Shown: positions 57,097 to 60,155 of the stretch, one piece after another | Position numbering within the stretch: position 1 is the first letter of the stretch | How the letters are laid out: every line of letters begins with the position of its first letter | Assembly: GCF_024227435.1 (NCBI RefSeq) | Contig: NZ_CP100445.1 | Coordinates: forward strand, 806,001 to 870,000 | Direction: 5' to 3' | From: Natrinema caseinilyticum | Lineage (GTDB): Archaea; Halobacteriota; Halobacteria; Halobacteriales; Natrialbaceae | DNA length: 64,000 nt | Notes under the pieces: generated by a model | The model's database searches: none | What the model was told of the DNA's origin: nothing | Seen by the model: the letters and a program-made list of their open reading frames with translations, nothing else | Made by a program: the position numbers and the translations under genes

Positions 57097-58068
57097 TCAC
57101 TCCCGGTCCGTCACCGATCGAGACGACGGGCGCGTCCTTCGACCGCCGGATCCGGATCGAGAGACCAGCCGTTCGACACGGTCGTCCGTCGAGGGGTGCG
57201 TCGCGAGAAGACGACCCAGTGCATCCTCCTCGGAGTGAACGTATAACGTCGCGAGCAAGCCGTGCTCGGACAGCGACGCGCGTTCGATCGTCCTGAGAGC
57301 CCGGGCGAGCGCCACCGGCTTCCCGGTGACTGCTACCGCTCGATCGTCGGCGGCGTACTCTCGGCGACGCGAGTGTGCGCGAACGACGAGCGTCAGCGCA
57401 AGCAGGGTCACCACCACTCCGCCCTCGATGAGGCCGAGCAGTCGCCCGAACAGCGTTCGCGACCACGACCGTGGAGTTCCGCGAATCCACGCGACCGCTC
57501 GAGCGATGCCCACCATCGCCACGAGCCAGGGGACGAGCACGAGGAAGACGAGTCCAGCGACCGTCCGAAAGACGCTGTATGCGAGCGTCTGGACGAACGC
57601 GTCGTGACTCTCGAGATGGGCGAACTCGTGGGCGACCAGGACCTCCAGTTCGTCGAGCGACAGCAGCCGAAAGAGCGAGCGGTCGAGGACGATGACGCCG
57701 TTTCGTGCGCTCCCCAGCGCGAACGCGTTGGGCGTCGGCAATCGCGCGATCAGGACCGTGGGAGAACCGACGTCCATTCGGGACTCGAGGCGATCGAGGC
57801 GGCGGTAGAACGCCGGCGCGTGGGATCGCGGTAGTTCGACCGCCTCCAGCCTCGAAAGGAGTTGTTTTGTCCCGAACCGGTAGCTCAACACGCCGGCGAC
57901 GATGGCGACGGTGAGGATCAAAAGCAGCGTCGTAGCCGGACTGGGTGCAGAATCGCGGAGTATCGAGATCGCCCAGTAGCTGAGGGCCGCGAGCCCCAGA
58001 TACCACAGCAACAGGAACAAACCGACCAGCGCCATCAGGAGTCGGGTTCCGGTTCGACGAGCGGGCAT
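57097..58068 (-). CDS. HtpX-like M48 membrane metallopeptidase
   Basis: The 323-residue protein has two N-terminal membrane helices (LLMALVGLFLLLWYLGLAAL and ATTLLLILTVAIVAGVLSYR). The zinc motif VLVAHEFAHLESHD has HExxH, and the third ligand Glu lies in SRRREYAADDRAV. PNAFALGSARNGVIVLD is typical of the family. M48 membrane proteases remove misfolded membrane proteins. The active site would face the cytoplasm. Confidence 0.87.
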   Translation of the reverse strand: MPARRTGTRLLMALVGLFLLLWYLGLAALSYWAISILRDSAPSPATTLLLILTVAIVAGVLSYRFGTKQLLSRLEAVELPRSHAPAFYRRLDRLESRMDVGSPTVLIARLPTPNAFALGSARNGVIVLDRSLFRLLSLDELEVLVAHEFAHLESHDAFVQTLAYSVFRTVAGLVFLVLVPWLVAMVGIARAVAWIRGTPRSWSRTLFGRLLGLIEGGVVVTLLALTLVVRAHSRRREYAADDRAVAVTGKPVALARALRTIERASLSEHGLLATLYVHSEEDALGRLLATHPSTDDRVERLVSRSGSGGRRTRPSSRSVTDRE

Positions 58069-58375
58069 CGTTCTCGTATCGAACTCGGGCCGGCCGCCTG
58101 AAACGGGTATCGAATCCGTGGGTCGGGCCGAAAGTCGGAATCTGGAACTGAACGGGCTGATCGCTCGTTACGCGGTTTGCCCCTCCTCACGTACCGTGCT
58201 GAAACTAATGCGAGAACGGAGACCTAGATTGTGTCAGACTCTAAAAATTCAATTAGTATAGCATGCTATTCTCATTTTTGGAATGGTCCCGAGCGTTCCC
58301 AAAAAATTTTGCTGGAATGACAGGCATATCGAGAACGACATCTCAAAATTAAAATAGGAGATACTGCCTCTAACC
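58069..58375. other. AT-rich intergenic DNA at the edge of the low-GC island
   Basis: Base composition drops sharply after about 58200. It contains a 12-bp perfect palindrome ATAGCATGCTAT (58258-58269) and several T-runs on the minus strand that could terminate the 58376-59307 unit. A 29-codon GTG ORF at 58231 is seen but not supported as a gene. Confidence 0.5.
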
Positions 58376-58585
58376 CTACCGGGAAGCAATCCAAACGAGT
58401 GAACCGATCGCCATCAGCGCGAAGACGATGCCCGTAACGAATATAGTCGTTTCCGCAAAGCTATCCACCCTCAGAATCCCATCGATCCCTTCGAAGTAAA
58501 TCGACGAACCTATCAGGAAAATACTAAATACGAGTATGAATACAGACCATTCCGGTTCTTGCGGGAATCCCTTTTGTGGAACCAT
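58376..58585 (-). CDS. Small two-helix membrane protein (possible immunity protein)
   Basis: The 69-residue protein starts MVPQKGFPQEPEW. It has two hydrophobic helices (VFILVFSIFLIGSSIYFEGI and TIFVTGIVFALMAIGSLVWI). It lies 50 bases after the Tat-exported protein gene on the same strand in low-GC DNA, with no separate good promoter, so the two are probably cotranscribed. The pairing resembles bacteriocin plus immunity membrane protein, but no family link was recognised. Confidence 0.6.
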   Translation of the reverse strand: MVPQKGFPQEPEWSVFILVFSIFLIGSSIYFEGIDGILRVDSFAETTIFVTGIVFALMAIGSLVWIASR

Positions 58586-58635
58586 TGGTTATTTTAACAG
58601 TGAATGGTCGTAAGTATTTTGCGGTGTAGCTCGTC

Positions 58636-59295
58636 TCAGTGTTGCGGTTCGAGGCCAGCGCCCCTCACGTTCTTGCCGATGTAGGACGTTGTAAGGGCCA
58701 CAACGATACCTTTTCCCTCATCGTTGTTATTGATTAGACCCTTCCCGGTCCTGAATAGGAACGCAGCCGCAGCACTGGCGATTGCAAACGGAATATTCCC
58801 GTAGAGGCTGCTAACCACTACTGAGAACGCAGAGAGTTCTACACCAGTCGTGAGTATATCCACGAGGTCCCTACAATCACAGTGATTTATCCAGAGTTTA
58901 TGACGGATTCCGCCAGCGGTGTAGTATTTGCCGTACTTGGTTTTGCCCCCACAAACCGGTGAACGACTCCATTTGAGTGGACTAATCCCGTCCGTATCGG
59001 GCTGAGGCTGGGTCTCAGTCACGACTGCTCCATTCTGCATGGAGAAATCGACTTTTCCCTCATCCTTCGCCTCATTGATCGCTTCTACTGAGGTGATCAT
59101 CGAGTTGTCATCATCGGCATAATACGCGAGATTGCCACCGTCGTCGATCCCGTACCCAAATTTCCCCCGAGTACCAGACGCCGCTGCTCCCGTTCCTGTC
59201 GCAAGGAGCGAGGCAACTCCAAGACTGGAGAGACCCGCAGTCGATCTAATAACGTTTCGTCTTGATAGACGTAAGGTGTGATTGTCTTTTGCCAC
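58636..59295 (-). CDS. Tat-exported protein of unknown family, bacteriocin (halocin)-like layout
   Basis: Starts are GTG at 59295 or TTG at 59307. The TATA-like box at 59318-59330 predicts transcription from about 59297, favouring a leaderless GTG. The Tat signal is LSRRNVIRSTAGLSSLGVAS, ending near GTGAAA. A Gly/Asp-rich middle (FGYGIDDGGNLAYYADDDNS) follows, then a Cys/Lys/Tyr segment (PVCGGKTKYGKYYTAGGIRH, NHCDCRDL with three cysteines). The C-terminal 70 residues are hydrophobic and Gly/Ala-rich, ending GKNVRGAGLEPQH. Codon use is AT-richer than all neighbours, suggesting transfer. Function is not proven. Confidence 0.65.
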   Translation of the reverse strand: MAKDNHTLRLSRRNVIRSTAGLSSLGVASLLATGTGAAASGTRGKFGYGIDDGGNLAYYADDDNSMITSVEAINEAKDEGKVDFSMQNGAVVTETQPQPDTDGISPLKWSRSPVCGGKTKYGKYYTAGGIRHKLWINHCDCRDLVDILTTGVELSAFSVVVSSLYGNIPFAIASAAAAFLFRTGKGLINNNDEGKGIVVALTTSYIGKNVRGAGLEPQH

Positions 59296-59317
59296 ATTCA
59301 GAGCCAATGACGATTGG

Positions 59318-59330
59318 TTATTAATAATAT
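59318..59330 (-). promoter_or_regulatory. TATA-like element of the Tat-exported protein gene
   Basis: On the minus strand it reads ATATTATTAATAA, about 27 bases before the GTG at 59295. It is the clearest AT-rich promoter element of the island. Confidence 0.5.
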
Positions 59331-59364
59331 CGAGAATATTCTGTGTCAGAAAAAGCTTCGAGAA

Positions 59365-59682
59365 TTAAAAATGAAAATGAGTTCTTTGGCTCATTAAGGC
59401 ATGATTCCTAAAAACCAAGTTCTCAATCCTACGATGTTTCACCTGATACTGTTCGCTTAACTCCTCGAGTTCATCAGTAACGTATCGTACTGCCTCCGCC
59501 GTATTCCATCCGCCATCAAAGAGTGGTATTCCGTTCGGTTCTGATACAGATGCTCTGAGTCCAAGTGTGAGTGAGCGGCATTAGTAGGGGTATACAGCCA
59601 CTGACACGCCCGCTAACTCCATCTCTGAGTACCAATTCACAATCGCGTCTTGATTCGCAAAGACACGGTTTCCGTAATCCAT
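59365..59682 (-). pseudogene. Low-GC degraded ORF with in-frame TAA
   Basis: The frame starts MDYGNRVFANQDAIVNWYSE at 59682 and meets TAA at 59581-59583. It then continues in the same frame for 71 more codons (GLRASVSEPNGIPLFDGGWN, RYVTDELEELSEQYQVKHRR) to a stop at 59365. The amphipathic helix-rich composition looks protein-like, and the stretch shares the low GC of the exported-protein gene just downstream. The family is not recognised. It may be a decayed member of the same imported cassette. Confidence 0.4.
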
Positions 59683-59825
59683 CAGCGAGTTCAAACTCCG
59701 AAATCACGCGGCTCGAAAATCGACGATTTCCGGCGTCCGGAGAAACCGTTGTTCCCTCTACCGACCCCGAGGCGGTCGGCCTCTTTCGCCGATAGATTTT
59801 GGGGATCGAGGGCTCCGCGAGAGAA
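59683..59825. other. Right border of the low-GC island
   Basis: Composition returns to GC-rich by about 59740. No gene, direct repeat or target-site duplication was identified by eye. Confidence 0.35.
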
Positions 59826-60155
59826 TCAGAACGACTGTTCCGATCGCTCCGTCCGTTCGCCGAGCGCCGGTGGCGTGCGGTCGCTGTAACCTTTCCGTCC
59901 GATGGCGTCGTCGGCGACGTTGTTGAAGATGGCCATCCGGGCTTCCGTTACCGACGCGAATCGCGCCGCAGGCACCTTGTTCAGGACCTCCTCGAGGGAC
60001 TGTTCGCCGTTCTGGAAGCGGAGGACTTCGGTTCCGTAGGCCTCGATCAGTTCCTCGCACGTGGCCGGATACTCGTGTTGCTCGAGTTGTCGCGCGAGCG
60101 AACCGAATTCGATTCCGAGCTCTCTCGTTCGGTCGTTCTCGGTCGGATCGGGCAT
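59826..60155 (-). CDS. DUF5789-like haloarchaeal protein
   Basis: The 109-residue protein starts MPDPTENDRTRELGIEFGSL. Its core reads LEQHEYPATCEELIEAYGTE, then LRFQNGEQSLEEVLNKV and SVTEARMAIFNNVADDAIGR. The pattern is that of small DUF5789 proteins common in haloarchaea, of unknown function. The start is the first Met of a short, independent gene. Confidence 0.72.
   Translation of the reverse strand: MPDPTENDRTRELGIEFGSLARQLEQHEYPATCEELIEAYGTEVLRFQNGEQSLEEVLNKVPAARFASVTEARMAIFNNVADDAIGRKGYSDRTPPALGERTERSEQSF

Follow-up and report, generated by a model that had tools for sequence, protein, structure and literature searches.

The gene pair described here lies in a 64,000-nucleotide stretch of a 4.77-Mb genome of the genus Natrinema (the window, within which all positions are counted). 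About 1.5 kb of it (58200-59740) has a GC content of 47.6 %, as compared to a mean of 63.8 % (sd 2.9) for 1.5-kb windows taken throughout the stretch, and the single lowest of these (47.3 %) starts at 58196; the AT-rich island that an earlier note had picked out by eye is thus borne out by measurement. It carries two genes on the minus strand, that is, gene A (58636..59295) for a Tat-exported precursor of 219 amino acids and gene B (58376..58585) for a putative immunity protein. As described in the earlier note, the latter is a two-helix membrane protein of 69 residues, encoded on the same strand as A and beginning 50 bases after its stop codon. A decayed third ORF, which had been placed upstream of the pair, did not hold up: the best frame (approximately 59368-59700) is interrupted by one stop, and its product is without relatives among 125 genomes of the family and plasmids. 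What remains at 59368-59700 is a low-GC stretch with a single interrupted reading frame.

The GTG at 59295 is the likely start of A, since a GTG at the same place is common to its close relatives; translation from a TTG farther upstream, at 59307, would likewise give an uninterrupted and longer frame. The product shares 57-68 % identity with its Natrinema homologues. Judged from the sequence, it begins with a twin-arginine signal region (residues 1-40, 59176..59295, minus strand) with the arginine pair at residues 12-13; the motif SRRNVIRS agrees with the Tat signal reported before, and the region is the best-conserved part of A among close relatives (74-77 % identity). The following acidic middle region (residues 41-113, 58957..59175, minus strand; 6 K+R, 13 D+E) is possibly a pro-domain and leads into a hydrophobic, net-basic C-terminal domain (residues 114-219, 58639..58956, minus strand; 11 K+R, 7 D+E), which is the part of A that is retained across the wider family. 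This domain comprises a C-GK..Y strand pair, a hydrophobic helical hairpin, an N-EG-G strand, and a PQ near the terminus. The Cys/Lys/Tyr segment noticed earlier is present as CGGKTKYGKYY, and a hydrophobic Gly/Ala-rich stretch is likewise found; however, it does not form the C terminus as had been stated, but is followed by a tail of about 30 residues. An AlphaFold2 model of low confidence (6 alignment rows, mean pLDDT 50, pTM 0.48) predicts the hairpin at residues 144-189 (58729..58866, minus strand) and, for the middle region, strands, a helix, and further strands ahead of a linker; a prediction from the single sequence (pLDDT 35) was useless. Compared with known structures, the poor six-row model gave nothing at E 0.001 in Foldseek and no chain at Z 5 in a second comparison, an outcome that speaks neither for a novel fold nor for one already described.

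Gene B is intact in all nine copies, and the spacing between A and B amounts to 50-68 bp in the window as well as in five further genomes of Natrinema (G055, G063, G061, G054, and G077). A profile of B found matches in 5 of 391 haloarchaeal genomes, all of them Natrinema and each with A or a remnant of A; a B gene without such a neighbour was not found by this profile in the 391 genomes. Pairwise dN/dS values lie at 0.18-0.35 for A and at 0.11-0.59 (mostly 0.15-0.35) for B. Since both thus have homologues with dN/dS of about 0.1-0.6, the two ORFs are not chance occurrences. Of the HMM and structure searches by which the earlier note had meant to check its proposal, those with both proteins in Pfam, NCBIfam, PHROGs, and PADLOC yielded no usable match, nor did the structure comparison with the model of A, and the A/B family is without a model in these four libraries.

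Both genes are preceded by elements of potential regulatory interest. Approximately 30 bases before the ATG of B stands an A-rich, promoter-like box, CGCAAAATACTTA (58611..58623, minus strand), which at up to one mismatch occurs once in the window as compared to 0.06 expected matches; with small changes, a box of this type precedes 9 of 9 B copies, also where a working A is absent. Upstream of A (44-56 bases before the gene) lies the palindrome TTCTGTGTCAGAA (59339..59351), partly kept in relatives, which is possibly an operator; its conservation may also reflect mere homology. The arrangement would suit constitutive transcription of B from its own promoter and regulated transcription of A. 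Near-identical 13-mers also occur upstream of both A and B, at 58581-58593 and 59310-59322 (reverse complement AATAACCAATGGT and AATAACCAATCGT, respectively).

The surroundings of the pair point to its origin. On the two sides lie genes for an M48-type peptidase (57097-58068; assigned by eye from its HEFAH motif) and a DUF5789 protein (59826-60155), which are neighbours also in N. gelatinilyticum (G054) with DNA identities of 89 % and 86 %, respectively. At the site where the window has 1,662 bp (58126..59787), this closest relative has just 137 unrelated bp, and the segment is therefore an insertion. The relative possesses an A-B cassette of its own, more than 2 Mb from the site that is empty there: the stretch 58341..59385 of the window is homologous to G054:C1:2388678-2389748 with 74 % identity. 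Low GC, the empty site, and the different location of the cassette in G054 together support acquisition of the cassette (approximately 1 kb) by transfer, as had been proposed in the earlier note.

Of 125 genomes of the family, 10 (including that of the window) contain a homologue of A according to a search with the single sequence. With a profile of A, relatives turned up throughout the class, in 46 of 391 genomes at E 0.001; the weakest matches among them cover the signal region only and may be due to chance. Confident relatives have a Tat-type start or have lost the start, and share in their C-terminal domain a C-G-x motif, a D-containing strand, the hydrophobic hairpin, and N-(E/D/Q)-G-x-G-(V/I). 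A plasmid search added one divergent relative on a Natrinema plasmid. Among the relatives of A and B, no homologue with a clear non-toxin function is known (Pfam, NCBIfam). A small multi-TM ORF stands beside A in 20 of 29 A loci, as compared to 1 of 68 control genes taken from the same loci (Fisher p 7e-13); with related loci collapsed by hand into 18 groups, 12 have a partner (p 1.5e-9). Partners were called automatically as ORFs of up to 160 amino acids with at least two hydrophobic segments, no more than 500 bp away and outside other long ORFs, a rule that misses the B gene present in G061 and possibly a partner in G057. The exported protein is thus regularly found with a small membrane partner rather than always without one, in line with the pairing suggested by the earlier note, and A-B itself is a case of a membrane protein gene that adjoins a putative effector gene and is conserved with it. 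The partners fall into different families, one of which (G040, G085, and G103; mutual E 1e-18 to 1e-54) stands divergent, convergent, and tandem to A; these three orientations argue for a functional linkage rather than mere operon carry-over. Against a toxin-immunity pair counts a distant A subfamily ending in SSQHCDC, for which no small TM partner was found within 500 bp. The SSQHCDC ending occurs in the distant relatives L077, L080, L081, and L083, and L082 ends in TQECSC, likewise without a partner within 500 bp; for one of these five loci, PADLOC gave a weak match to mad3 (N-terminal half, E 4e-4).

In several genomes, B is kept where A is broken. Of the A gene in G051, just the final 30 residues survive, immediately ahead of an intact B; in both G054 and G077, A is frameshifted and B intact; and in G061, a TGA stands in place of the codon for the second of the twin arginines while B is open. 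Genome G055 has three tandem B copies, all intact, of which the second and third each stand behind a mere tail of A (GGGPEPQS and GGGLEPQH). At the divergent G251 locus, A has no signal and middle region, and its 66-amino-acid partner is intact. Retention or multiplication in the absence of the effector gene, as would be expected of an immunity gene, is accordingly seen in G051 and the spare copies of G055, and also in G251. The counts of broken A beside intact B are suggestive and fall short of proof. As A is three times longer than B, it is expected to break first by chance, and breakage of A first in 5 of 5 loci has a probability of about 0.25 under length-proportional decay, which counts against a toxin-immunity relationship; moreover, frameshifts of A in single assemblies may be sequencing or assembly errors.

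The build of A (Tat signal, acidic middle, and hydrophobic net-basic C-terminal domain), its linkage to small membrane partners, the retention of B without A, and the own box in front of every B fit an exported toxin with a membrane immunity protein, in agreement with the proposal of the earlier note, and we regard A-B as probably a horizontally acquired bacteriocin (archaeocin)-immunity cassette. Counting against it are the poor structure model without matches and the profile comparisons, from which no sequence link to a proven bacteriocin emerged. Bacteriocins with immunity proteins are already known as a kind; a new archaeocin family is plausible on comparative evidence and may possibly have been listed as an anonymous candidate in a survey from 2019 that dealt with toxins and antimicrobial peptides of archaea. 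As to the mode of action, we infer toxicity, processing, a membrane target, and immunity as follows: A would be exported in folded form via the Tat pathway; its C-terminal domain, hydrophobic and cationic, would then be released or exposed extracellularly and would disturb the membrane of related haloarchaea, with B sitting in the membrane of the producer and blocking this domain. A release of this type has precedents in halocins H4 and C8, the active C-terminal fragments of which are released from precursors (PMC12893001).

The main rival explanation, which we judge unlikely, holds that A is exported and that B serves as its anchor or receptor in the membrane, the two acting without antagonism, for instance in signalling, surface binding, or lipid handling. 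Tight linkage of A and B together with purifying selection would look identical in this case, and the low-confidence model of A contains a beta-rich part; however, B genes kept without A, tandem spare B copies, partner families that differ between A subfamilies, patchy presence, and low GC would all be unusual for housekeeping partners. The mobility and low GC of the cassette, and the transposase genes near some relatives (recognised by eye in L026, annotated in G072), would also be consistent with a module for exclusion or defence that is related to viruses or plasmids, in which B blocks entry or membrane attack and A serves as exported decoy or effector. Such a module is nevertheless highly improbable, as searches of phage records, of viral contigs, and of PHROGs gave no match to either protein, and PADLOC is empty for both. 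That the pair is a decaying remnant with no present function appears scarcely credible, given that neither ORF is interrupted in the window and that both evolve at dN/dS far below 1, even though A is broken in several relatives and the unsupported third ORF lies nearby.

A might instead be a divergent representative of a bacteriocin family already described, be it halocin C8, Geo26-type class III, or circular saposin-like, a reading that draws on a similar anatomy and on several weak scores and that we consider quite improbable. Against the C-terminal half of Geo26, the profile-profile score of A beats 60 of 60 column shuffles, a control that leaves generic hydrophobic-helix similarity as an explanation of this score; the hhalign probability against alicyclobacillin 24 (Ali24) and its A. 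fastidiosus homologue is weak (10-21 %). The NCBIfam Geo26 model (NF035925), however, exceeded its cut-off in none of 145 haloarchaeal genomes, the A relatives including one at E 0.055. Profile matches of A to two circular bacteriocins among solved structures (E 0.38 and 0.49) are at chance level, and hydrophobic helices easily yield such weak scores. Halocin C8, which was located via what we take to be its mature peptide (matching with 100 % identity in G051), was rejected as a relative on sequence grounds: A has no NCBIfam match to it, the profile comparison aligns the Tat motif only, and the score of the C-terminal domain against the halocin C8 domain is reached by 35 of 60 column shuffles. 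At the level of sequence, the profile comparisons thereby agree with the earlier impression that there is no likeness to halocin C8.

Few haloarchaeal halocins have known genes. A published account regards the production of halocins as common among halophilic archaea (PMC3831642). If A-B is indeed an archaeocin-immunity cassette, it would provide a family defined by its sequence, with predicted genes for self-protection that lend themselves to direct testing, a reason for the existence of immunity-only strains, and a class of candidate immunity proteins for antimicrobials that archaea export via Tat.

Among known systems, the halocin C8 family is one of the closest. It shares with A a Tat-signal precursor of similar size from the same genera and a hydrophobic C-terminal effector domain, the corresponding parts of A being its twin-arginine motif and the C-terminal domain as putative effector. 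Three HalC8-like genes are likewise followed, at a distance of 78-98 bp, by a small ORF for a multi-TM protein of 125 amino acids (L132:1007-1384, L133:1027-1404, and L134:1798-2175). In contrast, the halocin C8 domain has at least eight conserved cysteines as compared to three in A, and self-immunity of halocin C8 reportedly resides in its own precursor. A HalC8-like sequence is also found elsewhere in the source genome (G000:C1:1999984-2000175; 40 % identity, E 4e-7). The circular bacteriocins enterocin NKR-5-3B and plantacyclin B21AG resemble A in a hydrophobic Ala/Gly-rich helical segment, and circular bacteriocins have small TM immunity proteins; A, however, is a linear precursor whose N-terminal part is long, and its surroundings showed no genes for cyclisation. 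Halocin H4 is likewise made by haloarchaea as a precursor, and a secreted protease sets its C-terminal fragment free (PMC12893001).

Among bacterial examples, the class III bacteriocin Ali24 has an exported precursor of a size near that of A with a C-terminal hydrophobic segment or helix (PMC13176240). With geobacillin-26, it shares the pattern of an exported protein of 24-26 kDa with a C-terminal hydrophobic segment (PMC13176240); these bacterial proteins have a Sec signal, whereas the archaeal A has a Tat signal. On two Alicyclobacillus plasmids, a two-TM ORF lies directly downstream of the Geo26-family genes for Ali24 (62 amino acids) and for its A. fastidiosus homologue (54 amino acids). 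These ORFs (L121:21951-22139 and L122:2272-2436) share 51 % identity and are candidate immunity proteins; the word "immunity" is absent from the main text of the Ali24 paper (PMC13176240). In the broadest reading, to which we give somewhat less than even credence, A would belong to a large unnamed haloarchaeal family of proteins that leave the cell via Tat and act on membranes, in which every subfamily is paired with an exchangeable immunity protein of its own in the membrane and immunity genes outlive their toxins, as a modular archaeal counterpart of class III or colicin-like bacteriocins.
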